Assembly: GCA_023052935.1 (NCBI GenBank)
Contig: CM041298.1
Coordinates: 63,978,217-64,042,216 of the forward strand
DNA from: Piezodorus guildinii
Lineage: Eukaryota; Arthropoda; Insecta; Hemiptera; Pentatomidae
Reading direction: 5' to 3'
Length of the DNA stretch: 64,000 nucleotides
In this document: one piece after another, positions 945 through 59,716 of the stretch
Layout: the number at the start of each line of letters is the position of its first letter
How positions within the stretch are numbered: the stretch's first letter is position 1
The notes under the pieces: model-generated
Seen by the model: only the letters and a program-made list of their open reading frames with translations
Databases searched by the model: none
Told to the model about the DNA's origin: nothing
Position numbers and translations under genes: made by a program

Positions 945-1020
945 AGTAGATGAAATATACCGGTTCTGGCCCAGGGCTCCGGTGCAAGATGGCGGCGCCC
1001 ATGGTTTCCCGCCAAAACTG
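945..1020 (+). promoter_or_regulatory. Left outer terminus, GC-rich, with a YY1/Pho-like motif
   Basis: The first ~75 bp are far more GC-rich than their surroundings. They include caagatggcggc at 985-996, which matches the YY1/Pleiohomeotic consensus (AAnATGGCGnC). Related GCCATNTT cores recur further in, near 1375, 1438, 1490 and 2348. The terminal bases AGTAGATGAAATATACCGG should be the integrase and replication-origin end if the element behaves like a Polinton. No binding has been shown here. Confidence 0.5.
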
Positions 1021-1204
1021 GCCTTTATTGAACGATCGTTCGCAATCTACCTGTCGTTCGTGATCTAGTCAATCCAACTTAACTTCATATTGTCAGTTTA
1101 ATTTATCGATTAAATATTCGATAGTAGAGAAGAAACAGGCGAGCTGGCGCACCGATTCCTCCATCCCCTCCCCTACCACTCTTAACCACCTATGACGTCA
1201 TCAC

Positions 1205-1345
1205 GACCTAACCTTAACTACTATGGTTCGCGCCATCGACCTAACCTAAACCACCGAGCCACGCCCCTTTTTAGTCACGTGACCTTTTATTAACCTAACC
1301 TAAACCAGTAGGCCACGCCCCTTTTTGGTCACGTGATCCCTGTTT
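1205..1345 (+). repeat. 54-bp direct repeats with E-box CACGTG and CCTAACCTAA
   Basis: Two units 54 bp apart share cctaacctaaacca (1240-1253 and 1294-1307), a cacgcccctttt stretch and a palindromic E-box cacgtg (1276-1281 and 1330-1335). A weaker third cctaacc lies at about 1206. CCTAACCTAA equals two units of the insect telomere repeat TTAGG, but two units do not make a telomere. The array may be a binding site for bHLH-type factors or for the element's own replication proteins. Confidence 0.6.
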
Positions 1346-1346
1346 G

Positions 1347-1500
1347 AGGGTATAAAGCATGAGTCTACCCGGCGTCCATCTTCTTTTCCCTACGTTTTGG
1401 GATAATTTAGTATTTATAAAGCATGAGTCTACCCGTTCGCCATTTTGTTTTACGCCGTAACCATTTACAAAGCATGAGTCTACCCGGACGGCATTTTGCT
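1347..1500 (+). repeat. Three copies of a ~40-bp unit with gcatgagtctaccc
   Basis: The exact 14-mer gcatgagtctaccc occurs at 1357-1370, 1421-1434 and 1472-1485. Each copy is preceded by tttataaa, tataaa or tttacaaa and followed by a CGNCATTTT or CCATCTT segment. The repeated TATA-like string just before the motif suggests tandem core promoters or iterated protein-binding sites near the element end. The function is unknown. Confidence 0.65.
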
Positions 1501-1611
1501 CCCCCCACTCCTGCATTAGTTAACCAATCAGAGTGCCTAACTTGAGAGTTCCTCCCGGCTAGGTCCGATGGTAAAATTGTAATGTGTGCTTTTACGAAAC
1601 CTTTCAAACTG

Positions 1612-2130
1612 TTACATAACCTTCTCATTGTTTACATTTTCCTCAACCTTCTCATTGTTTACATTTTCCTCAACCTTCCCATTGTTTACATTTTATGAAA
1701 CCTCCCTTGCTGTTACATAACCTTCCCGTTGTTTACATTATCTGAAGCCTCCCTTGCTGTGACATAACCTTCCCGTTGTTTACAATATCTGAAACCTCCC
1801 TTGCTGTTACATAACCTTCCCAATATTTACATTTTCCGCAACCTTCTCAATGATTACATTTATGAAACCTTCCAAACTGTTACATAACCTCCCCATTGTT
1901 TACATTTTCGGAAACTCCCCTTACTGTTACATAACCTTCCCAAGGTTTACATTTTCCTCAACCTCCCCACTGTTTACATTTTATGAAACCTCCCTTACTG
2001 TTACATAACCTTCTCATTGTTTACATTTTCCTCAACCTTCTCATTGTTTACATTTTCCTCAACCTTCCCATTGTTTACATTTTATGAAACCTCCCTTGCT
2101 GTTACATAACCTTCCCGTTGTTTACAAATT
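1612..2130 (+). repeat. TTTACA-type minisatellite (~27-32-bp variants)
   Basis: About 17 irregular units are built from cattgtttacatttt, ctgttacataacctt and cctcaacctt or gaaacctccc blocks. The order is higher-order: pairs of blocks repeat as larger modules, for example the 1620-1690 pattern recurs at about 2005-2075. The sequence is rich in TTTACA/TGTAAA. It is non-coding. Iterated arrays just inside a terminus could serve replication initiation, but that is a guess. Confidence 0.8.
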
Positions 2131-2444
2131 CAGAAGCATGTTCAATAGGTATTAACATTTCCACTGTTGGTTTACTTTTATTTTCTCTTCACATAGTCGC
2201 AGAACATACTTCATTTCTAAAGAATCCGCAAGAGCGCAGCACCCACTCTACTTCGTAATGTGTCCACCAGAGTGCATCTCTCCGGAATATTTTATGTTAT
2301 CTTTCCAATAATATTTTATACTTTTTTTTTTAAGTAAGTTTTTTCAGCCGCCATTTTGTTTTGAGGAAGCCAACATTGCAATAATTCAAACAGGTATGAA
2401 CATGTACAAACAGGTTTGAATCATGTTCAAGCATGTTGATAATT

Positions 2445-2826
2445 TAAACGTAAACATGGACTTTGAACCCTCTTAACGGCTTTAATATAAACATCGTTAT
2501 AGGGCTTCTTAATCCTATACATCTGTGAACTTTGATCCTTAATCCTACATTTTAAGTAGCGATAAAAAGTTCCTTAAGCTTAAACGTAAACATGGACTTT
2601 GAACCTTCTTAATGCCTTTAATATAAACATCGTTATACGGCTTCTTAATCCTGTACAGCTTTGAACTTTGATCCTTAATCCTAATATTTAAATAGCGATA
2701 AAAGGTTCCTTAAGCTCTTGGACTACGGTCTATTATTCTCCTATGTGTAATGATTTTTAATCCTATAGAGCTTTGAACTTTGATTCTTAATCCTACTATT
2801 TAAATAGCGATAAAAGGTTCCTTAAG
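2445..2826 (+). repeat. 136-bp direct repeat, two full units and one partial
   Basis: Units start at 2445 and 2581 with taaacgtaaacatggacttt and share ctttaatataaacatcgtta, aatcctacat-type and tagcgataaaa segments. A partial third unit covers about 2755-2826. Units differ by scattered substitutions. No coding potential is seen. Confidence 0.75.
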
Positions 2827-4174
2827 ACTTTGAAGCATTATCCTCTTAAGTATATGTATAAATATAATGCGGACCTTGTACGTTTTATCTCTTAGTATAG
2901 TAAATCCCTAATGATTTAATCGTAAACAACACCAATTTAAGACGTAAATATCAATATTGTACTAATGATTGCTTTAAGTATAAATATAAAATAATATAAA
3001 ACTTGTACCTATTTCGGTAGGCGAATATAATTATTTTTATATATATTTTCAATATTTTTAGTTATTTTCTCATCTTCTTAGACAAATTTTTACCTTTTCT
3101 ATGTATTATTTACTTAAAATTAACAATTCTGCTTTACAATTGCTATTAGCGATGTTTTCGGAAGAGTTCGTCTAATCTCGGCCGGCTTCGGTCTTCTACC
3201 TTTATCCCGTTCAACTTCGCTATAATCCGAAGTTCTATCTAAAGAAATAAACAATGATAACGTTGCTTCAATCGAAGGTAAACTGCTTCCTTATCTTATC
3301 TGCACATCTTGCTACAGTATAAACAACATTATATTCTAGTAAAATAATATTGTACATCGTAAACATTTTATTCATTTTAGTTATTAGTAAACAAAGTTTT
3401 GTACCTTTTTTAGTTCGGCGTTAAGCCTTAAGCCTCTTCACCACGTCAAGGTAAAGGTACATCGAAGAGGTTTTTATTTTATTTATTTATTTTACAACGT
3501 GATTTTCACAATAAAAATGTGTACATATTAAACGACAAAAATAAAGTTTATTAAAAATTAGAATTCATAAAATATAATTTCTAACACAATCAAGAATTAA
3601 ACTAAATTTATGCTTATAAAAAAATAAAATCATCACTTTTTTTGGTAGTGTATAATCATATTGAAATTTAATTTTTCACCCGATGGCATAAACGAAATAT
3701 TTGCTGATGAGATGGTCGGCAAGGTGCGGCAATAACTCTTTAATCTTCAATAAATAAACAACACCATATACTTTATCATTTTTTTTTTCTTTATGTATTT
3801 GAAAGAGAAATATGAGCATCGAAATTATTCTGCAGGGTTATTCTATTCACCTCACATTCACTCACACATTCAGGTTTACAGGTGTTCAAACCATGCCATG
3901 GACCTTCATTCAGGGTTTATAGGTGTTCAAACCGTGACAGTGACCCCTTTCATTCATGGTGAATAGATTTAAACAATTTTTCATTTACCTATACAGATAA
4001 AACCTTTTTTTGATACTCTGTACATTTCTCTTTCGAGACATTATGATAAATGCAATGGCTGCCTTGCTGAGATGGCTTTATTAATTTAAATACCGCCAAA
4101 ATATTCCAAATTCATTAGTGAACAGACATATTGTCACACCATGAACCATCATTTTTATTATTTGTTACCTTAGT
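2827..4174. other. Non-coding AT-rich DNA downstream of the left polymerase copy
   Basis: No reading frame or RNA gene is recognised. A short direct repeat around ggtgttcaaacc occurs twice near 3870-3935. Otherwise the stretch is plain AT-rich sequence with several possible polyadenylation hexamers. Confidence 0.5.
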
Positions 4175-4180
4175 TTTATT
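4175..4180 (-). terminator. Possible polyadenylation signal (AATAAA) of the left polymerase copy
   Basis: AATAAA on the minus strand about 69 nt beyond the polymerase stop codon; mirror of 12583-12588. Confidence 0.4.
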
Positions 4181-4248
4181 CAGACCAAAGACAAAAATGG
4201 TTGTAAATTCGCGTTTTGTTTCTTATTATTACCAAAATAATCTTTATA

Positions 4249-7200
4249 TTATTTCACTTCATTTAATTTATAATGACCATAGGCCAAAGTATTGATTCCG
4301 TCTTCTAGGATGTGTCTTTTATTATCAAAAGGAAACAGAGAAACCTTATTTATTTCGGAACTAAAAATATTATGCAGCTTAGATTGTATCATCCTCATTG
4401 GCGTATGCATAATTTCCCTTTTAAATAATACATTTTCATAATCCTCAAAACTAATATATTGTTTTAATGAGGCTGTTTTTACGCCTTTAGCTCGCTTTTT
4501 TACGTCGTTTTCTGTCATAATAGCGTACATTTTCGCTCTTAATCCCACATATTTTAAAATTATTTTGGAATTGAGCTCATCTTTAAACTTTCCTAACTTC
4601 TTTTTATTTTTATTCGAATAACACAAATGTGTTTCAGGATAGTCTGAGAAATCAAAATATTTATTCATTTTTTTCATATCTTCATAGACATCATCTGTTA
4701 AGACTCTATAGATAAATGAATCTGTATCGGTATACATCATCTTCAAGGTTTTTCCAGAATATTTTTTCATCATTATGTCATAATGAAATTGATACATTAC
4801 AGTTTTTGATAAGTCTAAAATGCACATTCCTATGTATATAGGTTTATTAAACAATACTTTCGATTTCCCCATATGTACAGCTACTATATTCTCATTGTAG
4901 ATTGTACGATCAATGAAATTCGGTTTAGAGACAAGTTTCATCAACTTTTTACTGTCAGTTACTAGTTGAATATTCTGGCGGTTCCTGATATTTTCCATCG
5001 TTTTACCGAAAACTGCATTGTTAAGCAACTTATAAAAATCTTTTTCAAAATCATTGGATGCTCCTTTCCTTAGCTCTGTATTGTATTCTATATACGATCG
5101 TAACCATGGTGCTTGGTTAAACTTTAGAACACGGTGAATTTTTTCCAAATTTAGCCCATGCTGTAGAGCTTGAATCAAATTTTTATAATGTAAGACGTAG
5201 CGATTTCTTTTCCCAAAATGTGTTGTTAATTTTTTTGAATTAGAATTTGAGCCCGGTGGTATCATCGCTTCAGGTAAGAACGGCAAATCATCATGGGAAT
5301 GGTGAAGTTCTTGAGGATAACTGATATCAATTTCAAAGATATATCCAATATCGTCATCATCCTTAAGCTCGAATATATTGATACGTTCAGGATTTTTGAC
5401 CCACTCGAATCCTCCGTACGGTAAATACATACTCATCGCTTGCCCATAAAGATTATTAGCATCTAAATAAACTATATAACTCGATTTTTCGTTTGGATTA
5501 AAATTGAGCATGTACTTATTATTCGCTTCTGCATACCTGTGCGATACCTGGCACAAACCTCCTCGAATGCCGTGCTCTACCATTAAAATCATATCATAAT
5601 CCTGTAAGAGCTCTATGTTAATTTTTGTATATTTTAACATGGCGTCGAAGGTCAAACCGGGAACGGTAAAATAATGAGCTGGATCAAGTTTATGTGTCTT
5701 CATCATAACGTCTCGAAAAGATTCGAAGACGTCACAAAGTAGAAGAACATCACTTTTAACGTAAAAATCAGCATATTCACCCAAAGATTTACATTTAAAG
5801 TGTTCCCATATGTTTTGAGCATGTCTATAATCTTCTGCGCTGATATCACTCTCATTCAATTTATTGTAAAAAGCTTCAATTGATGGTAGCTCTGTTTCAT
5901 TGAACTTATCTTCATTGTCTATGTAATCGTATGGAAAAACACCTTTTCTGGTGACCAATTTTAATTCCTCATCTCTATAATAATTTGATGTCTCCTTGAA
6001 TTTGTCCCAAGAAAGAGATTTTACAAGATAATCTAAGCTCCGCGGCATGAATCTGTAAGAATCTATAAACCTCAATTTCAGTTTACCAACATGTTTTGTA
6101 AAAGATATGTATTTTTCTTCACTGTTCGGTATTACCTCAACTTCTCCAGGGGTAGTTCCCAATTCTCTAACAATAAAATGTGCGTCATAATTGCTCAAGT
6201 TGTGCATTATGACAGGTACAAACGAGGGATTAACGCGTTTTAAATTACAATTATTACACGAAGCTCCTAAGTACGTTCCGGTTATATGGCAGTGGTCTCT
6301 AACTTTTATGTTGTTTTATTTAAATTCGTCTTGGCACATGTAACAGGTTTTAGCTTCAGCCCAATTTTTTTCTTCATCCGATGAAATCCGCATTGGTTTG
6401 TTCATCTTATAGATTTCTTGAATCTTTTTAGCAATATTGGTAATATATTCCATGAAGTGATAAGCGGCATTGGCTCCTCTATAAACGTACGGTATGTTTA
6501 TTGGGACGTCTACTCCCTCGATCCCTTTAACATATACACAAAATGATATCGGATCGTGCCTCTGATATTTAGTCGTGTTCTTTGACGATTCGTTTATAGG
6601 AACTAACATCGATTCAAAGTCGGCATAGATGACAAACGGCACCTTGCTTTGTCGTTCCATATTTGAGAATCTGATAAAGTGGTCTTTCTTTGGTATCTCT
6701 ATTCTTACTGGTTTATTTTCAGAGCAATATATCTTATGTTCTTCAAGTTTTTCACTAGCTTGTTTTCCATACAGATTGTTAAAATGTGTGAAGCAGCGTT
6801 TACATATTGTTAACTTATGTTCATACTGGCTGATTTGTGACACAACTAATCTTTCGAAATTTTTTATGTAAACATAATGGGAAGTTTTATCATCAGACAC
6901 GAGTAAAAGATCCCGGTGATCTTTCAATTCTGTTTTACAGACTTTCAGAGGGTATATCTTATCTTTTTCATCGAGCCCATAGACATTGATGGAGATGTTA
7001 TTTACCTTTTCAAATTTTCTTATCTCACTCAGTGAAGTTGGAAATGAAACGCAAGTAAAGTCATACACGTGTTCTAAATTGTTATACTTAGTAACGCGTT
7101 GTGCGTGCTTTTTAACAAATTTTGATAAAATTGAATACTTAAAACAGTACATATCATTATTCCGCACATTAATGCAAGCTTTCTTTGATTCTATAGATGG

Positions 7201-7857
7201 GGGGAGTGGAAGATACGTACAACCTCTTAGAGGCATATATTTGTTAATTCTCAATCTGATTCCATCAACCCCACTCAGCTTCCATCCGCTTTTTTTAAAT
7301 TGAGACTCCTCAGCTTCAGTTATGATTTTGTTAAAACTTTCCTCTATAAATTTGCTAAGATTGCTGCCTTTAAACACACATTTGTTTCGTGTTTTGAATG
7401 CCTTATCCATCTGATCACCTACAGAATTTGTAAAAGTACATTCCAATAGGCAGTTCACTTTCAATGCGCCATGTTCATGTAGCGAATCTCGAATTTTATA
7501 CACTAAGAGGTTCTTAACACTTTCCAGAAACGAGTTAATATCCATAGAATCGGACGATCTGATGAAGAATGATGCCAATCGGTTCTGAAATGCTGTCTCA
7601 TACTCAACAAGTCCCTGCTTGTCTGGTACGAGTGCTAAAATGACATTCTTTTGTGGCTCAGATAATTTTAATTTTTTTATCAACGGTTCCTGGGTACATA
7701 CATTTTCATGTCTTTTACCGTTATAAATATTTGGAAAAACACCTCCACACCTGGTGCAAGTATAAGTCGAATTACCGTTACAAGATTTTTCATGTCTACG
7801 AAGGCTCTTCAAATACTCATACGTATTATCGCAAAGGTAACATTTAAACTGACTCAT
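4249..7857 (-). pseudogene. Left-arm copy of the PolB gene, nonsense-mutated
   Basis: This is the mirror copy of the intact gene at 8906-12514, with the same start (7857) and stop (4249). One base change at 6318 turns codon 514 from GAA (right arm) into TAA, so the N-terminal product ends after 513 residues. The break lies inside the endonuclease VII-like domain, between its two CxxC pairs. Downstream the frame stays open to the natural stop and has an in-frame ATG at 6207 (residue 551). A reinitiated product would keep ExoII, ExoIII and polymerase motifs but lose the zinc fingers, ExoI and the nuclease module. In the two translated segments I saw no other amino-acid difference from the right copy, so the mutation looks recent. 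Confidence 0.9.
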
Positions 7858-7882
7858 TTTTAAGTGTTAAATTTCAAAATTT

Positions 7883-7927
7883 CTGAACGGAGAAAAAATT
7901 AATAATTTATTTATGCACACAACTTAC
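7883..7927 (-). other. Possible 45-nt intron in the 5' leader of the left polymerase copy
   Basis: Mirror of the candidate intron at 8836-8880: GTAAGT donor and a pyrimidine tract with CAG acceptor, 25 nt upstream of the start codon. Confidence 0.3.
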
Positions 7928-8152
7928 CTTCCGTGAACAAATGGAGAAATATCTACTAGTTTAAAATTAACGAAAAAAAAAATCTTCTATAAAACTTAAA
8001 TAATATAAAAATATTAATGGCACCAAGAAATTAGGAAATATTTTTAAACTCAGATAGCAGCAACAGCAACAAATCAATGTGTTCGCTTTGAAGTCTGAAG
8101 CTAAAATGACAGTAAATACAAATGACAAGTAACTCGTTAACTATCAGCTGTT

Positions 8153-8242
8153 GCTTACCCCCACCACCTCGTGTTTACCCCCACCACCTTCCACTTTACC
8201 CCCACTACCTTCACTTTTACCCCCACCACCTTGCATTTTACC
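8153..8242 (-). repeat. G-run tandem repeat upstream of the left polymerase copy
   Basis: Mirror of 8521-8610. One base differs from the right arm at 8214. The proline/histidine-rich reading frame on the plus strand here is a translation of the repeat, not a gene. Confidence 0.7.
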
Positions 8243-8358
8243 TCCCCCCCCCTCCCTCTTCCCCCTCCTGCCCTTGTAGTGCATTCGAGGATACCCAACT
8301 CAAGATGATGGTCAGAAGTGGTTAAGAGTAATCAGAGAGAGTCGGAGAGGTTCACATG

Positions 8359-8404
8359 TGAGGAAAAGATTATGTCCAATCTGTCCAATAAGTTTTCTTA
8401 AAAC
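8359..8404. other. 46-bp loop at the centre of the palindrome
   Basis: This is the unpaired spacer between the arms. It has the short direct repeat tgtccaat twice (about 8373-8389) and weak residual complementarity at its edges (gaggaaaa against ttttctta). It marks the point where the duplicated end folded back on itself. The direct repeat and edge microhomology would fit a template-switch junction, but that is inference. Confidence 0.85.
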
Positions 8405-8520
8405 CATGTGAACCTCTCCGACTCTCTCTGATTACTCTTAACCACTTCTGACCATCATCTTGAGTTGGGTATCCTCGAATGCACTACAAGGGCAGGAGGG
8501 GGAAGAGGGAGGGGGGGGGA

Positions 8521-8610
8521 GGTAAAATGCAAGGTGGTGGGGGTAAAATTGAAGGTAGTGGGGGTAAAGTGGAAGGTGGTGGGGGTAAACACGAGGTGGT
8601 GGGGGTAAGC
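8521..8610 (+). repeat. G-run tandem repeat (~21-bp units), potential G-quadruplex, upstream of PolB
   Basis: Five units begin with ggtaaa/ggtaag at 8521, 8542, 8563, 8584 and 8604 (spacing 21, 21, 21 and 20). Each ends in a run of four or five G after ggtggt or ggtagt. A further G-rich tract at 8490-8520 precedes them. On the sense strand of the right polymerase gene, about 300 bp upstream of its start, this offers at least four G-runs and could fold as a G-quadruplex. The mirrored array makes the central ~500 bp a symmetric divergent control region. Confidence 0.7.
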
Positions 8611-8743
8611 AACAGCTGATAGTTAACGAGTTACTTGTCATTTGTATTTACTGTCATTTTAGCTTCAGACTTCAAAGCGAACACATTGATTTGTTGCTGT
8701 TGCTGCTATCTGAGTTTAAAAATATTTCCTAATTTCTTGGTGC

Positions 8744-8776
8744 CATTAATATTTTTATATTATTTAAGTTTTATAG
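8744..8776 (+). promoter_or_regulatory. Possible AT-rich promoter of the right polymerase gene
   Basis: A TATA-like run (tatttttatattattt) lies about 150 bp upstream of the start codon, within the region between the G-run array and the candidate leader intron. It is the only TATA-like block at a sensible distance. The assignment is weak because the whole region is AT-rich. The mirrored block would serve the left copy. Confidence 0.25.
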
Positions 8777-8835
8777 AAGATTTTTTTTTTCGTTAATTTT
8801 AAACTAGTAGATATTTCTCCATTTGTTCACGGAAG

Positions 8836-8880
8836 GTAAGTTGTGTGCATAAATAAATTATTAATTTTTTCTCCGTTCAG
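8836..8880 (+). other. Possible 45-nt intron in the 5' leader of the right polymerase gene
   Basis: AAG|GTAAGT donor at 8836 and a ttttttctccgttcag acceptor ending at 8880, 25 nt before the ATG. The signals are strong, but 45 nt is at the short limit for insect introns. Confidence 0.35.
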
Positions 8881-8905
8881 AAATTTTGAAATTTAACACT
8901 TAAAA

Positions 8906-11900
8906 ATGAGTCAGTTTAAATGTTACCTTTGCGATAATACGTATGAGTATTTGAAGAGCCTTCGTAGACATGAAAAATCTTGTAACGGTAATTCGACTTA
9001 TACTTGCACCAGGTGTGGAGGTGTTTTTCCAAATATTTATAACGGTAAAAGACATGAAAATGTATGTACCCAGGAACCGTTGATAAAAAAATTAAAATTA
9101 TCTGAGCCACAAAAGAATGTCATTTTAGCACTCGTACCAGACAAGCAGGGACTTGTTGAGTATGAGACAGCATTTCAGAACCGATTGGCATCATTCTTCA
9201 TCAGATCGTCCGATTCTATGGATATTAACTCGTTTCTGGAAAGTGTTAAGAACCTCTTAGTGTATAAAATTCGAGATTCGCTACATGAACATGGCGCATT
9301 GAAAGTGAACTGCCTATTGGAATGTACTTTTACAAATTCTGTAGGTGATCAGATGGATAAGGCATTCAAAACACGAAACAAATGTGTGTTTAAAGGCAGC
9401 AATCTTAGCAAATTTATAGAGGAAAGTTTTAACAAAATCATAACTGAAGCTGAGGAGTCTCAATTTAAAAAAAGCGGATGGAAGCTGAGTGGGGTTGATG
9501 GAATCAGATTGAGAATTAACAAATATATGCCTCTAAGAGGTTGTACGTATCTTCCACTCCCCCCATCTATAGAATCAAAGAAAGCTTGCATTAATGTGCG
9601 GAATAATGATATGTACTGTTTTAAGTATTCAATTTTATCAAAATTTGTTAAAAAGCACGCACAACGCGTTACTAAGTATAACAATTTAGAACACGTGTAT
9701 GACTTTACTTGCGTTTCATTTCCAACTTCACTGAGTGAGATAAGAAAATTTGAAAAGGTAAATAACATCTCCATCAATGTCTATGGGCTCGATGAAAAAG
9801 ATAAGATATACCCTCTGAAAGTCTGTAAAACAGAATTGAAAGATCACCGGGATCTTTTACTCGTGTCTGATGATAAAACTTCCCATTATGTTTACATAAA
9901 AAATTTCGAAAGATTAGTTGTGTCACAAATCAGCCAGTATGAACATAAGTTAACAATATGTAAACGCTGCTTCACACATTTTAACAATCTGTATGGAAAA
10001 CAAGCTAGTGAAAAACTTGAAGAACATAAGATATATTGCTCTGAAAATAAACCAGTAAGAATAGAGATACCAAAGAAAGACCACTTTATCAGATTCTCAA
10101 ATATGGAACGACAAAGCAAGGTGCCGTTTGTCATCTATGCCGACTTTGAATCGATGTTAGTTCCTATAAACGAATCGTCAAAGAACACGACTAAATATCA
10201 GAGGCACGATCCGATATCATTTTGTGTATATGTTAAAGGGATCGAGGGAGTAGACGTCCCAATAAACATACCGTACGTTTATAGGGGAGCCAATGCCGCT
10301 TATCACTTCATGGAATATATTACCAATATTGCTAAAAAGATTCAAGAAATCTATAAGATGAACAAACCAATGCGGATTTCATCGGATGAAGAAAAAAATT
10401 GGGCTGAAGCTAAAACCTGTTACATGTGCCAAGACGAATTTAAAGAAAACAACATAAAAGTTAGAGACCACTGCCATATAACCGGAACGTACTTAGGAGC
10501 TTCGTGTAATAATTGTAATTTAAAACGCGTTAATCCCTCGTTTGTACCTGTCATAATGCACAACTTGAGCAATTATGACGCACATTTTATTGTTAGAGAA
10601 TTGGGAACTACCCCTGGAGAAGTTGAGGTAATACCGAACAGTGAAGAAAAATACATATCTTTTACAAAACATGTTGGTAAACTGAAATTGAGGTTTATAG
10701 ATTCTTACAGATTCATGCCGCGGAGCTTAGATTATCTTGTAAAATCTCTTTCTTGGGACAAATTCAAGGAGACATCAAATTATTATAGAGATGAGGAATT
10801 AAAATTGGTCACCAGAAAAGGTGTTTTTCCATACGATTACATAGACAATGAAGATAAGTTCAATGAAACAGAGCTACCATCAATTGAAGCTTTTTACAAT
10901 AAATTGAATGAGAGTGATATCAGCGCAGAAGATTATAGACATGCTCAAAACATATGGGAACACTTTAAATGTAAATCTTTGGGTGAATATGCTGATTTTT
11001 ACGTTAAAAGTGATGTTCTTCTACTTTGTGACGTCTTCGAATCTTTTCGAGACGTTATGATGAAGACACATAAACTTGATCCAGCTCATTATTTTACCGT
11101 TCCCGGTTTGACCTTCGACGCCATGTTAAAATATACAAAAATTAACATAGAGCTCTTACAGGATTATGATATGATTTTAATGGTAGAGCACGGCATTCGA
11201 GGAGGTTTGTGCCAGGTATCGCACAGGTATGCAGAAGCGAATAATAAGTACATGCTCAATTTTAATCCAAACGAAAAATCGAGTTATATAGTTTATTTAG
11301 ATGCTAATAATCTTTATGGGCAAGCGATGAGTATGTATTTACCGTACGGAGGATTCGAGTGGGTCAAAAATCCTGAACGTATCAATATATTCGAGCTTAA
11401 GGATGATGACGATATTGGATATATCTTTGAAATTGATATCAGTTATCCTCAAGAACTTCACCATTCCCATGATGATTTGCCGTTCTTACCTGAAGCGATG
11501 ATACCACCGGGCTCAAATTCTAATTCAAAAAAATTAACAACACATTTTGGGAAAAGAAATCGCTACGTCTTACATTATAAAAATTTGATTCAAGCTCTAC
11601 AGCATGGGCTAAATTTGGAAAAAATTCACCGTGTTCTAAAGTTTAACCAAGCACCATGGTTACGATCGTATATAGAATACAATACAGAGCTAAGGAAAGG
11701 AGCATCCAATGATTTTGAAAAAGATTTTTATAAGTTGCTTAACAATGCAGTTTTCGGTAAAACGATGGAAAATATCAGGAACCGCCAGAATATTCAACTA
11801 GTAACTGACAGTAAAAAGTTGATGAAACTTGTCTCTAAACCGAATTTCATTGATCGTACAATCTACAATGAGAATATAGTAGCTGTACATATGGGGAAAT

Positions 11901-12514
11901 CGAAAGTATTGTTTAATAAACCTATATACATAGGAATGTGCATTTTAGACTTATCAAAAACTGTAATGTATCAATTTCATTATGACATAATGATGAAAAA
12001 ATATTCTGGAAAAACCTTGAAGATGATGTATACCGATACAGATTCATTTATCTATAGAGTCTTAACAGATGATGTCTATGAAGATATGAAAAAAATGAAT
12101 AAATATTTTGATTTCTCAGACTATCCTGAAACACATTTGTGTTATTCGAATAAAAATAAAAAGAAGTTAGGAAAGTTTAAAGATGAGCTCAATTCCAAAA
12201 TAATTTTAAAATATGTGGGATTAAGAGCGAAAATGTACGCTATTATGACAGAAAACGACGTAAAAAAGCGAGCTAAAGGCGTAAAAACAGCCTCATTAAA
12301 ACAATATATTAGTTTTGAGGATTATGAAAATGTATTATTTAAAAGGGAAATTATGCATACGCCAATGAGGATGATACAATCTAAGCTGCATAATATTTTT
12401 AGTTCCGAAATAAATAAGGTTTCTCTGTTTCCTTTTGATAATAAAAGACACATCCTAGAAGACGGAATCAATACTTTGGCCTATGGTCATTATAAATTAA
12501 ATGAAGTGAAATAA
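8906..12514 (+). CDS. Protein-primed-type family B DNA polymerase with zinc fingers and an endonuclease VII-like domain
   Basis: Intact 1202-residue frame. Residues 6-26 and 34-54 form two CxxC...H..C zinc fingers; a third CxxC...H...C sits at 352-378. The 3'-5' exonuclease motifs are ExoI ADFES (D413, E415), ExoII NLSNYDAHF (near 553-560) and ExoIII YVKSDVLLL (D703). Between ExoI and ExoII lies an endonuclease VII-like module: C505/C508, D521-H522-C523-H524, and C534-N-N-C537-N538. This is the four-cysteine, DHxH, CNxCN pattern of phage T4 endonuclease VII. Polymerase motifs are A (DANNLYG, D799), B (KLLNNAVFGK from K943), C (YTDTDS, D1044/D1046) and a KKRAKG stretch further on. The A-to-B and B-to-C gaps (about 144 and 100 residues) leave room for the TPR1/TPR2 insertions of protein-primed enzymes. 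It is expected to replicate linear DNA from terminal-protein-bound ends in the nucleus. No terminal-protein gene is seen. Confidence 0.93.
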   Translation: MSQFKCYLCDNTYEYLKSLRRHEKSCNGNSTYTCTRCGGVFPNIYNGKRHENVCTQEPLIKKLKLSEPQKNVILALVPDKQGLVEYETAFQNRLASFFIRSSDSMDINSFLESVKNLLVYKIRDSLHEHGALKVNCLLECTFTNSVGDQMDKAFKTRNKCVFKGSNLSKFIEESFNKIITEAEESQFKKSGWKLSGVDGIRLRINKYMPLRGCTYLPLPPSIESKKACINVRNNDMYCFKYSILSKFVKKHAQRVTKYNNLEHVYDFTCVSFPTSLSEIRKFEKVNNISINVYGLDEKDKIYPLKVCKTELKDHRDLLLVSDDKTSHYVYIKNFERLVVSQISQYEHKLTICKRCFTHFNNLYGKQASEKLEEHKIYCSENKPVRIEIPKKDHFIRFSNMERQSKVPFVIYADFESMLVPINESSKNTTKYQRHDPISFCVYVKGIEGVDVPINIPYVYRGANAAYHFMEYITNIAKKIQEIYKMNKPMRISSDEEKNWAEAKTCYMCQDEFKENNIKVRDHCHITGTYLGASCNNCNLKRVNPSFVPVIMHNLSNYDAHFIVRELGTTPGEVEVIPNSEEKYISFTKHVGKLKLRFIDSYRFMPRSLDYLVKSLSWDKFKETSNYYRDEELKLVTRKGVFPYDYIDNEDKFNETELPSIEAFYNKLNESDISAEDYRHAQNIWEHFKCKSLGEYADFYVKSDVLLLCDVFESFRDVMMKTHKLDPAHYFTVPGLTFDAMLKYTKINIELLQDYDMILMVEHGIRGGLCQVSHRYAEANNKYMLNFNPNEKSSYIVYLDANNLYGQAMSMYLPYGGFEWVKNPERINIFELKDDDDIGYIFEIDISYPQELHHSHDDLPFLPEAMIPPGSNSNSKKLTTHFGKRNRYVLHYKNLIQALQHGLNLEKIHRVLKFNQAPWLRSYIEYNTELRKGASNDFEKDFYKLLNNAVFGKTMENIRNRQNIQLVTDSKKLMKLVSKPNFIDRTIYNENIVAVHMGKSKVLFNKPIYIGMCILDLSKTVMYQFHYDIMMKKYSGKTLKMMYTDTDSFIYRVLTDDVYEDMKKMNKYFDFSDYPETHLCYSNKNKKKLGKFKDELNSKIILKYVGLRAKMYAIMTENDVKKRAKGVKTASLKQYISFEDYENVLFKREIMHTPMRMIQSKLHNIFSSEINKVSLFPFDNKRHILEDGINTLAYGHYKLNEVK

Positions 12515-12582
12515 TATAAAGATTATTTTGGTAATAATAAGAAACAAAACGCGAATTTACAACCATTTTTGTCTTTGGTCTG

Positions 12583-12588
12583 AATAAA
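12583..12588 (+). terminator. Possible polyadenylation signal (AATAAA) of the right polymerase gene
   Basis: First AATAAA after the stop codon, 69 nt downstream. Confidence 0.4.
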
Positions 12589-13936
12589 ACTAAGGTAACA
12601 AATAATAAAAATGATGGTTCATGGTGTGACAATATGTCTGTTCACTAATGAATTTGGAATATTTTGGCGGTATTTAAATTAATAAAGCCATCTCAGCAAG
12701 GCAGCCATTGCATTTATCATAATGTCTCGAAAGAGAAATGTACAGAGTATCAAAAAAAGGTTTTATCTGTATAGGTAAATGAAAAATTGTTTAAATCTAT
12801 TCACCATGAATGAAAGGGGTCACTGTCACGGTTTGAACACCTATAAACCCTGAATGAAGGTCCATGGCATGGTTTGAACACCTGTAAACCTGAATGTGTG
12901 AGTGAATGTGAGGTGAATAGAATAACCCTGCAGAATAATTTCGATGCTCATATTTCTCTTTCAAATACATAAAGAAAAAAAAAATGATAAAGTATATGGT
13001 GTTGTTTATTTATTGAAGATTAAAGAGTTATTGCCGCACCTTGCCGACCATCTCATCAGCAAATATTTCGTTTATGCCATCGGGTGAAAAATTAAATTTC
13101 AATATGATTATACACTACCAAAAAAAGTGATGATTTTATTTTTTTATAAGCATAAATTTAGTTTAATTCTTGATTGTGTTAGAAATTATATTTTATGAAT
13201 TCTAATTTTTAATAAACTTTATTTTTGTCGTTTAATATGTACACATTTTTATTGTGAAAATCACGTTGTAAAATAAATAAATAAAATAAAAACCTCTTCG
13301 ATGTACCTTTACCTTGACGTGGTGAAGAGGCTTAAGGCTTAACGCCGAACTAAAAAAGGTACAAAACTTTGTTTACTAATAACTAAAATGAATAAAATGT
13401 TTACGATGTACAATATTATTTTACTAGAATATAATGTTGTTTATACTGTAGCAAGATGTGCAGATAAGATAAGGAAGCAGTTTACCTTCGATTGAAGCAA
13501 CGTTATCATTGTTTATTTCTTTAGATAGAACTTCGGATTATAGCGAAGTTGAACGGGATAAAGGTAGAAGACCGAAGCCGGCCGAGATTAGACGAACTCT
13601 TCCGAAAACATCGCTAATAGCAATTGTAAAGCAGAATTGTTAATTTTAAGTAAATAATACATAGAAAAGGTAAAAATTTGTCTAAGAAGATGAGAAAATA
13701 ACTAAAAATATTGAAAATATATATAAAAATAATTATATTCGCCTACCGAAATAGGTACAAGTTTTATATTATTTTATATTTATACTTAAAGCAATCATTA
13801 GTACAATATTGATATTTACGTCTTAAATTGGTGTTGTTTACGATTAAATCATTAGGGATTTACTATACTAAGAGATAAAACGTACAAGGTCCGCATTATA
13901 TTTATACATATACTTAAGAGGATAATGCTTCAAAGT
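12589..13936. other. Non-coding AT-rich DNA downstream of the right polymerase copy
   Basis: Mirror of 2827-4174. A ggtttgaacacct direct repeat lies near 12831-12894. Nothing else is recognised. Confidence 0.5.
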
Positions 13937-14318
13937 CTTAAGGAACCTTTTATCGCTATTTAAATAGTAGGATTAAGAATCAAAGTTCAAAGCTCTATAG
14001 GATTAAAAATCATTACACATAGGAGAATAATAGACCGTAGTCCAAGAGCTTAAGGAACCTTTTATCGCTATTTAAATATTAGGATTAAGGATCAAAGTTC
14101 AAAGCTGTACAGGATTAAGAAGCCGTATAACGATGTTTATATTAAAGGCATTAAGAAGGTTCAAAGTCCATGTTTACGTTTAAGCTTAAGGAACTTTTTA
14201 TCGCTACTTAAAATGTAGGATTAAGGATCAAAGTTCACAGATGTATAGGATTAAGAAGCCCTATAACGATGTTTATATTAAAGCCGTTAAGAGGGTTCAA
14301 AGTCCATGTTTACGTTTA
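13937..14318 (-). repeat. 136-bp direct repeat, right-arm copy
   Basis: Mirror of 2445-2826. Confidence 0.75.
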
Positions 14319-14632
14319 AATTATCAACATGCTTGAACATGATTCAAACCTGTTTGTACATGTTCATACCTGTTTGAATTATTGCAATGTTGGCTTCCTC
14401 AAAACAAAATGGCGGCTGAAAAAACTTACTTAAAAAAAAAAGTATAAAATATTATTGGAAAGATAACATAAAATATTCCGGAGAGATGCACTCTGGTGGA
14501 CACATTACGAAGTAGAGTGGGTGCTGCGCTCTTGCGGATTCTTTAGAAATGAAGTATGTTCTGCGACTATGTGAAGAGAAAATAAAAGTAAACCAACAGT
14601 GGAAATGTTAATACCTATTGAACATGCTTCTG

Positions 14633-15151
14633 AATTTGTAAACAACGGGAAGGTTATGTAACAGCAAGGGAGGTTTCATAAAATGTAAACAATGGGAAGG
14701 TTGAGGAAAATGTAAACAATGAGAAGGTTGAGGAAAATGTAAACAATGAGAAGGTTATGTAACAGTAAGGGAGGTTTCATAAAATGTAAACAGTGGGGAG
14801 GTTGAGGAAAATGTAAACCTTGGGAAGGTTATGTAACAGTAAGGGGAGTTTCCGAAAATGTAAACAATGGGGAGGTTATGTAACAGTTTGGAAGGTTTCA
14901 TAAATGTAATCATTGAGAAGGTTGCGGAAAATGTAAATATTGGGAAGGTTATGTAACAGCAAGGGAGGTTTCAGATATTGTAAACAACGGGAAGGTTATG
15001 TCACAGCAAGGGAGGCTTCAGATAATGTAAACAACGGGAAGGTTATGTAACAGCAAGGGAGGTTTCATAAAATGTAAACAATGGGAAGGTTGAGGAAAAT
15101 GTAAACAATGAGAAGGTTGAGGAAAATGTAAACAATGAGAAGGTTATGTAA
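14633..15151 (-). repeat. TTTACA-type minisatellite, right-arm copy
   Basis: Mirror of 1612-2130 with the same unit order. Such arrays usually change copy number quickly, so the identical order in both arms supports recent duplication or ongoing conversion. Confidence 0.8.
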
Positions 15152-15262
15152 CAGTTTGAAAGGTTTCGTAAAAGCACACATTACAATTTTACCATCGGAC
15201 CTAGCCGGGAGGAACTCTCAAGTTAGGCACTCTGATTGGTTAACTAATGCAGGAGTGGGGGG

Positions 15263-15416
15263 AGCAAAATGCCGTCCGGGTAGACTCATGCTTTGTAAAT
15301 GGTTACGGCGTAAAACAAAATGGCGAACGGGTAGACTCATGCTTTATAAATACTAAATTATCCCAAAACGTAGGGAAAAGAAGATGGACGCCGGGTAGAC
15401 TCATGCTTTATACCCT
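15263..15416 (-). repeat. Three gcatgagtctaccc units, right-arm copy
   Basis: Mirror of 1347-1500, with the 14-mer cores at 15279-15292, 15329-15342 and 15393-15406 on the minus strand. Two short overlapping reading frames here are only translations of the repeat. Confidence 0.65.
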
Positions 15417-15417
15417 C

Positions 15418-15558
15418 AAACAGGGATCACGTGACCAAAAAGGGGCGTGGCCTACTGGTTTAGGTTAGGTTAATAAAAGGTCACGTGACTAAAAAGGGGC
15501 GTGGCTCGGTGGTTTAGGTTAGGTCGATGGCGCGAACCATAGTAGTTAAGGTTAGGTC
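15418..15558 (-). repeat. 54-bp E-box direct repeats, right-arm copy
   Basis: Mirror of the left-arm array. The E-boxes lie at 15428-15433 and 15482-15487. Confidence 0.6.
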
Positions 15559-15742
15559 GTGATGACGTCATAGGTGGTTAAGAGTGGTAGGGGAGGGGAT
15601 GGAGGAATCGGTGCGCCAGCTCGCCTGTTTCTTCTCTACTATCGAATATTTAATCGATAAATTAAACTGACAATATGAAGTTAAGTTGGATTGACTAGAT
15701 CACGAACGACAGGTAGATTGCGAACGATCGTTCAATAAAGGC

Positions 15743-15818
15743 CAGTTTTGGCGGGAAACCATGGGCGCCGCCATCTTGCACCGGAGCCCTGGGCCAGAAC
15801 CGGTATATTTCATCTACT
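15743..15818 (-). promoter_or_regulatory. Right outer terminus, mirror of the left
   Basis: Inverted copy of the left terminus with the YY1/Pho-like motif at 15767-15778. Both ends of the element are therefore the same terminal sequence, which would let an integrase acting in trans recognise both. Confidence 0.5.
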
Positions 15819-15824
15819 TATAGT
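15819..15824. repeat. 6-bp target-site duplication, right copy (tatagt)
   Basis: Exact repeat of 939-944, immediately after the last palindromic base at 15818. Confidence 0.85.
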
Positions 15825-27520: not shown

Positions 27521-28680
27521 TTTTTTTTTCAATAACAATTTTTTATTGAGTAGTATTACAATCTGTCCCGATTCGGACATCAATAATAGTGGTGAAAGAT
27601 AACATTCATACAATATTTACACATCAATAAAATTACAATAAAATATATATACAATAATGAATAAACTGTTTACAAAGTCTAGATATCACTCATACCTATA
27701 TACACGTCATACATACATCACATGAAGTGGAAAAAGTAGCCAGTGCTAGAACTGCAATATATACATATTTACAAGAGGTCGCGGGGCCACTGCCGTTTCA
27801 AACATCTAGTGGGCTGGGGGTAGTAAGGATGAGTGGAGCTGGAAAAGGATTAAGCTAGACGATTGGGATGATGGATAAGGTTCTAATGGAATTTGGAGAA
27901 TTTTGATGGAATAAGATCTAGCTTAATAGAATATTTAGGTAGTGGTGTGAGATATGATTGGTGACATAATAGGGAGCATTTACTATTGTTCGAAGGACTT
28001 GGGATAGAAAGGATTGAATGCGTTTGATGTTAGAAAGTTTAGCTGTCCCCCATAGTGCAAGTCCGTAGGTCCAGATAGGCTTCAGTATTGTCTTGTTGAT
28101 TAGTATTTTTTTGTCAACTGTAAGCTCAGATTTTCTGTTGAATAGTCGGTATAACTGTCCGAACAGTCGGTTGAGTTCTTGTCTTTTAAGTCTTGTATGT
28201 GGGTTCCATGTCAATATTTTGTCTAACAGTAAGTCAAGATAACGGGATGTATCTGAAGTAGGAATTGGTAATGAGTTGAAATTTTTTGAAAAATTCGTCT
28301 AAGAGTGAAGGTTATGTGTTTACATTTGGCTTCGTTCACCTTTATACGCCAGTTATTACATCAGTGTTCGATAAGGAAAAGGTGTCTCTGCAGGCTTAAG
28401 GATGCTGTTTCAGGATTGGAACTGGGTGATAGGATGGCGGTGTCGCCTGCAAATCTTGCCAGAAAGGTATCAGAATATGTAGGAATATCAGCAGTGTAAA
28501 GGATGTAGAGGACGAGTCGTAAGAAGTTGCCTTGAGGAACACCGGCCTCAACGGGATAAAAGTTGGAAAATTCTACACCACAGCGAACTCGGAAGAAACG
28601 GTTTGAGAGATAGGATCGGAGAATGAGGTATAGAGACTGGGTTTGGTGTAGCACAAATATCAAACATATGCTCATAAAGT
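27521..28680 (-). pseudogene. Jockey-like LINE fragment including RT motifs (J3)
   Basis: Minus strand. About 28675-28361 encodes SLYLILRSYLSNRFFRVRCG, EAGVPQGNFLRLVLYILYTAD and FARFAGDTAILS, the RT region with FAGD in place of the usual FADD. After a frame break, 28214-27918 gives MTWNPHTRLKRQELNRLF, LKPIWTYGLALWGTAKLSN and IVNAPYYVTNHI. The end CLKRQWPRDL lies at about 27780. A poly(A) (T-run at 27521-27530) marks the 3' end. The altered RT motif and frameshifts show that it is dead. It is a different subfamily from J1/J2. Confidence 0.85.
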
Positions 28681-46544: not shown

Positions 46545-48150
46545 ATGAAATAAAAATGAAATGAAAAAACTTTTTTATTATCCTGGGACTAAAGTCCCTT
46601 AAGAATAAAATAAAATACATAGTTGATGACCGGAACAGTGTGGTCATGGCTTAGAATAACAAAATACTAAACTAAAAAATAATTAAGGTAGTAATATATG
46701 TACATCTTTACAAGTCAGACTTTCGGAATAAGAAAAACAAAAAAAACAGAAATAGCTGGTTCATCAATGATAATTTGAGTACTATAAACACACAAAAATA
46801 ATAATAATAATTGGTATTTATAGCATCTGCAGTTTGAAGTTATTGTCTGTTTGACTGGGTAAGGAGAAGGTGGTTGAAAAGTAGCGATTTGAAGGAGGAA
46901 GCAGTACTTACATGACGGATCTCAGGAGGAATAGAATTCCAAAGAGTGGTTGCTTTGGCTAGAAAGGACTTGTCAAAGGCAGCAGTACGGTGAGGAGGAG
47001 GGTAGAGGTCAGAAAGACGGGATCTAGTAGAACGGGACTGAATTGATGATTTAAATTGAAGGGATTGGAAGATAAAGCTGGGACGATGAGTTCTGATAAC
47101 CTGGTAGAGGAAGGAGGCTAGGAAATACTGGCATCTGTAACGAGGATAAAGCCACCTTAACTCGGTGTAATACTGGGTTATATGCGTGTCTCTGGTGATT
47201 CCGAATACAAACCGTATTGCACAGTTCATAATACGCTTAAGTTTTGCTTCGAGCTCACCTGAAAGTCCGCTGTACACCTCTCATCCGTAGTCAAAGTGGG
47301 GAAAGACAAGGGAAGAAACAAGGAGTTTACGAATATTGAATGGTAGGAGGTGATGGAGGCGACGGAATTGCTTTAGGGTTGTTATGGTTCGGCGGGATAT
47401 TTGGGAGATGTGCGGTTTCCAAGAGAGAGTTTGATCAAGAGTAATACCTAAGTTCTTGACAGATGAATGGAAAGAGATAGGAGTATTGTTTAGGAAAAGG
47501 TTGGGGGAACTGGGAAAGGATTTAAGGAGAGCAGGTGATGCTATCAGGATGGCTTTTGTTTTTTCAGCGCTTAGCAGGAGTTTGTTGCTGTTTGACCAAG
47601 CTCTTATATTATTTATGTCCTCCTGAACTTTAGAGATAGCATCAGGAAATTCATTTGGGGTAAAGGAAATATAAATCTGAATATCGTCGGCATAGAGGTG
47701 GTATTGGGAGTGCTTGATGGAGAGCGGAAGATCATTTATGAATATGGAGAAAAGGGTAGGAGATAACGAGGAACCTTGGGGTACACCTTTTGTTAATGGC
47801 AGTGAGTCGGAGCGGGGTTTATTGGGAACTACAACATACTGGGAACGGCCGGTAAGGAATGATTGAAACCATTGAAGAGCGCCTGTGGATACTGGGAGTC
47901 TATGGAGTTTGGTTAAGAGGATATTATGGTCCACAGAATCGAAGGCTTTGGAAAAATCAAGCAAAACAAGGATTGTTATTTTGTGCTGATCTATGGCCTT
48001 GTGAAGATCTTGGGAAATGTGGGAGAGAGCAGAGTGAGTAGAATAGCCAGGCCGAAAACCAGACTGGAGGGGGTTCAAAAGGTTATTTTGCTCGAGGTAG
48101 AGGGATAACTGAGATTGGACCAGACGCTCTAAAGGTTTAGAAAGGTGCTA
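46545..48150 (-). pseudogene. CR1-like LINE reverse transcriptase, 5'-truncated, one in-frame stop
   Basis: Minus strand. It opens at about 48150 with LSKPLERLVQSQL and goes on with LQSGFRPGYSTHSAL, LVLLDFSKAFDSVDHNILL (catalytic D), KGVPQGSSLSPTLFSIFINDL, HLYADDIQIYISF (catalytic YADD), KTKAILIAS and VKNLGITLDQTLSWKPHI. A TGA at 47281-47283 replaces the Cys seen in the sister copy (FDYGC). The same frame then continues through NCAIRFVFGITRDTHI and LRWLYPRYRC to LWNSIPPEI. The 3' end has tcctgggactaaagtccctt and ATTTC-type repeats. RT catalytic residues are intact, but the upstream part (endonuclease, ORF1) is missing. Similar to 58097-59716. Confidence 0.88.
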
Positions 48151-58096: not shown

Positions 58097-59716
58097 GTTG
58101 TTTATCCAACCTCTCAAAACCACTTGAAAGAATAATCCACTCTCAATTCTATAACTTTCTTGAACAAAAATCTCAACTCGTTCCCTTCCAGTCTGGCTTC
58201 AAATCCCAATATTCCATATAATCAGCTCTCCTAAAAATTACTCAAGACTTTTAATCCTCCATAGACAAACAAAACATATCTATCCTGGTCCTCTTTGACT
58301 TCTCAAAAGTCTTTGATATGGTAAACCATGAAATCCTTCTCTCCGAACTCCGAAACCTATCAATATCCGATAGTGCCATAAACTGGTTTCTTTCCTTTCT
58401 ATCCGCTCGAACTCAAACTGTGATAATTCCAAATAAACCTCCTTCCTCACCTATTCTTCTAACACATGGAGTTCCGCAGGGATCAGCTCTTTCTCCAATC
58501 CTATTCTCTATCTATATTAATGACCTACCCAATTCCATACTTCACGACGACTATCTCCAAATTTATCTCTCCTTCCATCCCTCCGAAATGCCTGAGATGG
58601 TCCAAAAATTACAAGAAGACATTGACAGTATCAATTTATGGGTCATCAAGAATGGTCTAAAACTTAATGTTGATAAAACAAAAGCTATCCTCATCGGTTC
58701 CAAACATCTGCTCAACTCCCTCTCTTGCCACCCCTTACTCTACCTCAATCATAGACCCATCATCTTCCAAACGTCCGTTAGAAACCTAGGCATATTCCTT
58801 GACCAAAACCTATCTTGGAATAATCACATTTCTCATATTTCTAGAAAATCCATAGCCATCCACAAACAGTTCCTCAGATTATGTGATATAATACCCCTTA
58901 AAACTCGCCAGCTCATAGTTTCCTCTCTCATCTTCCCCCACTTCGATTATGGCTGCCTGGTGTTTGGCGGGCTGTCCGAGATTCTTGAGATGAGACTGAA
59001 GAGATTAATGAACTGTTTTATTAGATTCATCTTCGGAATCCCTCGGCGCTCTCATGTCTCAGCCTGGTATGCCGAGTTGAAGTGGCTTTACCCTAAATTC
59101 TGACGACATACTTCCTAGGAACTTACCTCTACCAATCCTTCAGAACCACAAAACCCCTCTATATTTACAATTCGTTTACCCCACTTTCCTCTGTCCACTC
59201 CATCAACACAAGATCCCAACCTTTAATCTGCTGATTCCATCCCACAGGACTGCTTCCTTTAAGAGATCCTTCGTCATACGTGCATCTTCATTTTGGAATT
59301 CCTTGTCCATGTCGATTCGTACATGCCCATCCTTAACTTCCTTTAAGCACCATCTATTTACCCATCTCCTCGAACATCAATCTGCCGTGCCTTTATAAAC
59401 TTAACTACCTGGCCTCTTCATTTGTATCCCAATTTTCTCAATTTTTGTTGTTTTTTTTTGTTTTAATATATTTTATTATTTTTATTTATTTACGGTTATA
59501 TGTATTTGTGTGTGTGTATATTTAAATGTATGCAGACCTATATGTATCATAATTTGTAATCCATAAAATGCTGTATATAATCTTATAAATTCTACTTAGC
59601 TAGAAGTTAAATCTTATATTGTACATTTATATTATTCTTAGGGGACTAGCTGTCCCAGAATAAAATTTATTTTTAATTTCATTTTCATTTCATATCATTC
59701 ATTTCATTTCATTTGT
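58097..59716 (+). pseudogene. CR1-like LINE reverse transcriptase copy lacking the YADD motif, inserted in Jockey J5
   Basis: The plus strand encodes LSKPLERIIHSQFYNFL, FQSGFKSQYSI and LVLFDFSKVFD with two in-frame stops before 58318. An open frame of 261 residues follows: GVPQGSALSPILFSIYINDL, then HDDYLQIYLSF, KTKAILIGS, VRNLGIFLDQNLSWNNHI, HFDYGCLVFGGL and RFIFGIPRRSHVSAWYAEL. Where the sister copy has HLYADDIQIYISF, this copy has lost several residues, so the YADD catalytic motif is gone. The remainder to about 59400 is frameshifted. The 3' end has gggactagctgtcccagaat and ATTTC repeats. It is 5'-truncated at nearly the same codon as 46545-48150. Confidence 0.87.

Follow-up and report, generated by a model that had tools for sequence, protein, structure and literature searches.

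The window analyzed here is a 64,000-nucleotide stretch of the Piezodorus guildinii genome (assembly GCA_023052935.1, contig CM041298.1, positions 63,978,217 to 64,042,216 of the forward strand), and at positions 945–15818 of this window lies a palindromic element with a PolB gene in each arm. The left arm (945–8358, 7,414 bp, plus strand) pairs in inverted orientation with the right arm (8405–15818, 7,414 bp, minus strand), each position x with 16763-x, with 3 mismatches over the 7,414 positions, and the two arms enclose an unpaired centre, or loop, of 46 bp (8359–8404). The length and identity of the arms exclude a chance palindrome. The element begins with AGTAGATG and ends with CATCTACT, so that its termini read AGTAGA...TCTACT, and it is bracketed by the 6-bp target-site duplication TATAGT (939–944 on the left, 15819–15824 on the right). 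As printed, the duplication has seven bases, the element's own first base being a further match, and it amounts to six once the AGTAGA start of the other copies is taken into account. A preliminary description of the window had reported the palindrome, its pairing rule, its loop and its TATAGT flanks, and our analysis bears out each of them.

The PolB gene of the right arm (8906–12514, plus strand, first ATG to stop) is open and lies in a frame that extends from stop to stop over 8897–12514 and encodes 1,205 amino acids. The PolB gene of the left arm (4249–7857, minus strand) is interrupted by one in-frame stop, which leaves frames of 516 and 688 amino acids. The protein contains an endonuclease-VII-type zinc domain in its middle part (E-value 2.7e-5, just above the cut-off), a weak C2H2 match at its start, below the cut-off, and what we take to be the exonuclease and polymerase motifs, the residues of which are invariant in a 14-sequence alignment. 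Among the best 120 of 6,251 matches, the nearest relative is a Halyomorpha halys protein, which is 80% identical over residues 400–1200, with numerous proteins from arthropods and several from molluscs ranking after it, among them one named PolB of a Ladona adintovirus. A structural model of a 337-residue piece of the N-terminal part (predicted local distance difference test score 90, predicted template modelling score 0.57) matched an adintovirus 2 protein (E-value 1.2e-22, template modelling score 0.43) and a MELD virus PolB (E-value 1.7e-11); a fold search of the PDB with the same model gave no match at an E-value of 0.001 or less. No relative of the window PolB was found among phage records and viral contigs, and an NCBIfam scan of the protein returned nothing over the cut-off. 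From its sequence, we assign the arm gene as a PolB of the Polinton/adintovirus kind, and its relatives and motifs point to the protein-primed type.

PolB is the only gene that we found in the element, as previously stated for this locus. Our survey of the right arm covered unspliced open reading frames, the second largest of which has 106 amino acids and lies antisense within PolB. Ten of the 66 other frames of at least 40 amino acids were scanned against Pfam, with no match for eight and weak matches below the cut-off for two. Neither an integrase nor packaging ATPase, protease or capsid genes were found in this survey. The stretch between the loop and PolB (8405–8896) holds no long frame and, together with its mirror (7867–8358), is probably a divergent promoter region, as judged by position. 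Tandem-repeat arrays occupy the outer non-coding part of each arm (1618–2126 and 14637–15145). The two outermost segments, of 178 bp each (945–1122 on the plus strand and its mirror, 15641–15818, on the minus strand), are terminal extensions, since many other copies begin at a nested AGTAGA at position 1123. The nested AGTAGA termini are thus 178 bp apart, and the long or the short end is used independently on each side. One long and one short terminus are combined in copy C and in the copy at C2:90981487, so that the choice of end is not fixed.

A multi-copy family, most often palindromic

We searched the genome from which the window comes (1.2 Gb, 434 contigs) at the DNA level with positions 946–3000 as a query. 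This search scored 40 of 1,063 candidates and yielded 94 matches; the family counts given here are therefore lower bounds. At least 25 related loci could be read from the match table, comprising 21 palindromes, one single-arm copy with a stub and three loci that were left unread (C7:110578262, C7:20735642 and C3:20283864). Both arms were directly present in the matches at 15 of the 25 loci, and six of the ten apparent singles also proved to be palindromes: C5:152019396, C2:117391515, C7:31848757, C1:180488751–180503142, the four-arm unit at C2:90981487, and C1:181393572, which was called a palindrome solely from a divergent PolB pair.

A profile search of the genome with PF03175, in which 91 of 516 candidates were scored, gave 72 matches to the PolB domain. 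Forty-eight of these form 24 divergent (minus-then-plus) pairs and the remaining 24 are single; no other orientation occurs among neighbouring scored matches within 8 kb. One single match, C1:209174705, belongs to a locus already known as a palindrome. The family has many copies and diverged subfamilies, and its common form is the palindrome. A one-off defective genome was considered as an origin of the window element and is ruled out by the many palindromic copies.

Whole palindromes carry their own target-site duplications. An exact 6-bp duplication flanks 13 of the 17 palindromes with readable ends, all 13 being different, and the AGTAGA terminus is present at 32 of the 34 ends read. The presence of separate duplications around whole palindromes indicates that the palindromes are the inserting units, and that they have done so repeatedly, generating 6-bp duplications. 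These data agree with the earlier proposal that the palindrome was mobilized as a unit, and they provide the further palindromic copies with different duplications that had been suggested as a check.

Two loci depart from the two-arm form. The four-arm unit at C2:90981487–91003481 spans 22.0 kb with CCGGGC at both sides; it was inserted as one piece and looks like a multimer. The one-arm copy at C5:46953412–46961840 (8.4 kb) retains one arm together with the loop, while the other arm is reduced to a 166-bp stub; a host repeat lies in between, and the copy has a 5-bp flanking duplication. This host repeat of about 0.95 kb (about C5:46953586–46954539) replaces most of one arm and is 85% identical to window positions 27531–28473. 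A size limit near that of a normal Polinton, about 15 kb, had been put forward for the window element; it fits poorly with the 22.0-kb and 8.4-kb units, with their duplications of 6 and 5 bp, and was rejected on their account.

The centres vary among copies. The 46-bp loop of the window element recurs in copies A, F, I, J and C2:153474, other short loops of 20 and 34 bp are found in B and D, and H and C1:209164396 have homologous loops of 57 and 56 bp, respectively, as compared by eye. Despite the loop that it has in common with H, C1:209164396 has an outer arm about 85% identical to that of the window element. Copies C and E have lost the same central segment of about 730 bp from one arm, in opposite orientations and with different target duplications. 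The turn-arounds thus vary, although a given one can persist through several insertions, and no single junction is fixed at the centre of the copies.

The two arms of an element agree with each other

We compared the arms of 11 elements over 4.65 kb. The two arms of an element differ at 0–8 sites, with a sum of 31, and a sum as low as 31 was obtained in none of 20,000 random arm pairings, with or without element H. Sixteen of the 22 arms are strictly nearest to their own partner. The ten elements other than H have 19 private substitutions that are present on both sides of the element and 23 that are confined to a single arm, columns common to several elements being omitted from the count.

Element H is a mosaic: about 4.8 kb into the arm, inside PolB, its sequence switches, and the position of this breakpoint is identical in the two arms. 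Outside the switch, H is more than 99% identical to the window arm, except for the first 250 bp (95%), and inside it the identity is 83–96%. Over 2.4 kb, all sites but one at which H departs from the window copy are common to its two arms. Since it is implausible that the switch arose twice independently at a single point, we interpret H as a case in which the sequence of one arm was copied onto its partner. Copying of one arm to the other has taken place in several lineages.

The four diverged copies have arm ends that are 99.3–100% identical over 152–221 bp in all cases. Near the centre, the arms are 99.8–99.9% identical in C95 and C7:60573 and about 98% identical in C2:153474 and C1:209164396, as measured by self-alignment with the loop included.

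The PolB genes of H and the window copy differ with a synonymous rate (dS) of 0.23 and a non-synonymous rate (dN) of 0.033, a dN/dS ratio of 0.14, and most of the changes fall within the inner half of PolB. PolB is under purifying selection between these two copies. The complete 1,205-amino-acid frame is present in nine of the 22 arms, spread over seven of the 11 elements.

Conventional Polintons and other repeats

The genome contains ten packaging-ATPase matches, and four single PolB matches lie 3.9–4.9 kb from one of them (C2:187356927, C4:154102, C1:48137047 and C3:152718917). Based on these neighbouring sequences, we identify the four loci as conventional Polintons; no scored PolB match lies within 15 kb of the other six ATPase matches. 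The proposed search for conventional Polintons in the same genome was thus successful in part: such elements are present, with PolB near an ATPase, and the one PolB sampled, from a stretch of 280 bases, shares 53% identity with that of the window element over 74 amino acids. A recent origin of the family from the sampled conventional Polinton is ruled out by this value.

Elsewhere in the window, two reverse-transcriptase frames (47284–48147, minus strand, and 58255–59100, plus strand; RVT_1 E-values 4e-35 and 1.6e-17, respectively) are probably retroelement remains.

Discussion

Our data are best accounted for, with a probability of roughly 0.6, by a family of PolB transposons that would replicate through a self-complementary hairpin and would have their integrase supplied in trans. 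PolB would start at the termini by protein priming, as presumed from knowledge of the polymerase family, and displace a strand. The displaced strand, being self-complementary, would fold into a 7.4-kb hairpin whose open end could act as a double-stranded origin, and copying round the loop would restore the full palindrome. In the folded state, differences between the arms may be erased by mismatch repair or by copying from one arm, and a failure to separate the products could give rise to multimers joined tail to tail, of which the four-arm unit would be an example. An integrase of the retroviral type acting in trans, perhaps that of the conventional Polintons of the same genome, would insert the ends beginning with AGTAGA. 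The form of the element, as the preliminary description had noted, suggests fold-back replication.

Several observations weigh against this reading. No replication intermediate was seen, the four-arm unit being an indirect sign of one, and no integrase was tied to ends of the AGTAGA type. Six of the 22 arms are not strictly nearest to their own partner. In copies C and E, the short and the full arm still disagree at one site; together with their common deletion, this site indicates that the arms are not remade in every cycle. Element I (C3:74681991–74696617) pairs a window-like arm with a J-like arm, on the basis of four sites. As to insertion, a recognizable duplication is absent in two of the 17 palindromes, G and C1:180, the duplication of C7:60573 matches at five of six positions, and B (C3:96176980–96191544) is flanked by direct repeats of 62 bp where a 6-bp duplication would be expected. 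As to the gene, PF03175 scores on relatives of PolB and on other genomic copies and not on the window protein, and near-identical copies give dN/dS ratios of 0.24–0.84 on 6–9 changes, which are too few to judge by. Judging from the same four sites, element I looks as if it had been made from two parents.

The arm identities of the diverged copies leave room for host gene conversion, and they lower our confidence in the hairpin. Gene conversion by the host keeps the arms of sex-chromosome palindromes alike, and the palindromes described here could likewise be inherited as ordinary double-stranded DNA, with conversion after insertion keeping their arms similar and no hairpin needed. This explanation, which we hold to be unlikely and nevertheless worth serious consideration, also predicts the agreement of arms within an element, and it accommodates copies C and E, which carried both arms, their difference included, through transposition. 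The near-identical arms of C95 and C7:60573 close to the centre and the arm ends of all four diverged copies speak for it as well, whereas the roughly 98% identity near the centre of C2:153474 and C1:209164396 speaks against it, and the four-arm unit and the new central turn-arounds are left unexplained by it.

The preliminary description had regarded the window element as a snap-back defective by-product, a view that is not supported, the palindrome being the common multi-copy form and the dN/dS between two copies of PolB being 0.14. Its extension to repeated aberrant snap-back of ordinary Polinton genomes would account for the several different turn-arounds and would have a source in the conventional Polintons of the genome. 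We nonetheless consider it improbable, given that no fewer than five copies have the same 46-bp loop as the window element, that PolB is conserved between two copies and that the sampled conventional PolB is so dissimilar. A head-to-head insertion of two elements, or the capture of PolB by a foldback element, would fit the very long inverted repeats that foldback elements likewise have; in 13 of the 17 palindromes, however, one duplication encloses the entire structure, and the sole one-arm copy found retains the loop and a stub of the second arm, which makes such origins highly improbable. Amplified reads or reads with hairpin adapters can yield inverted duplications, yet an artefact of this kind is scarcely credible here, since the same architecture recurs at many loci with distinct flanks, different duplications, asymmetric centres, diverged sequence and some differences between arms.

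Polintons, or Mavericks, generate 6-bp duplications and have ends beginning with AG, and the window family resembles them in these two traits, in its kind of PolB and in a size near 15 kb. It differs in that its arms were found to contain no integrase, ATPase, protease or capsid gene, and in that Polinton inverted repeats enclose a unique gene set whereas the 46-bp loop alone is unique here. Parvoviruses form self-complementary (dimeric inverted) genomes and rolling-hairpin intermediates and encode a Rep nickase. The likeness to these lies in the inverted dimer around a hairpin and in the head-to-head and tail-to-tail multimers; the differences are that the present family has PolB instead of a Rep nickase, that it is integrated with target duplications and that the palindrome is its common form. 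Foldback transposons have very long inverted repeats and little unique sequence, as does the window element, but they are not known to have PolB-bearing arms, whereas each arm of the window family carries PolB. Adintoviruses are described as combining PolB with integrase and virion genes in the definition given in PMC11071296. The window element is similar to them in its PolB sequence and N-terminal fold, and differs in that no virion or integrase genes were found in its arms. Bidnaviruses, according to the account of them in PMC4061559, have a Polinton-type PolB without most Polinton genes, with capsid and helicase genes between terminal repeats; the window family has such a PolB in the same reduced setting and differs from them in respect of the capsid and helicase genes.

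No palindromic Polinton-type element was found by title or start of abstract among the papers listed in our literature searches, a scope that excludes transposon databases, and the word stem "palindrom" is absent from the texts of PMC4028283, PMC4061559, PMC11071296 and PMC6431247, which were consulted for the definitions of Polintons, bidnaviruses and adintoviruses. We tentatively suggest, at somewhat less than even odds, that the family represents a class of eukaryotic transposons with a self-complementary hairpin genome, in which one arm would hold the entire information and the second would be regenerated from it during replication by PolB. This organization would be inherited across subfamilies and would replace the Polinton gene set, with integration borrowed in trans.

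Such a family would show that PolB and a pair of ends can suffice for a spreading element. Its copies also record replication, since the breakpoints common to both arms, the arm-specific differences and the four-arm unit are traces of folding back that can be tested; in our judgement, the replication of Polintons has so far been deduced mainly from gene content. Very long palindromes are usually unstable in chromosomes, and the family described here would show that a transposon can regularly take such a form.

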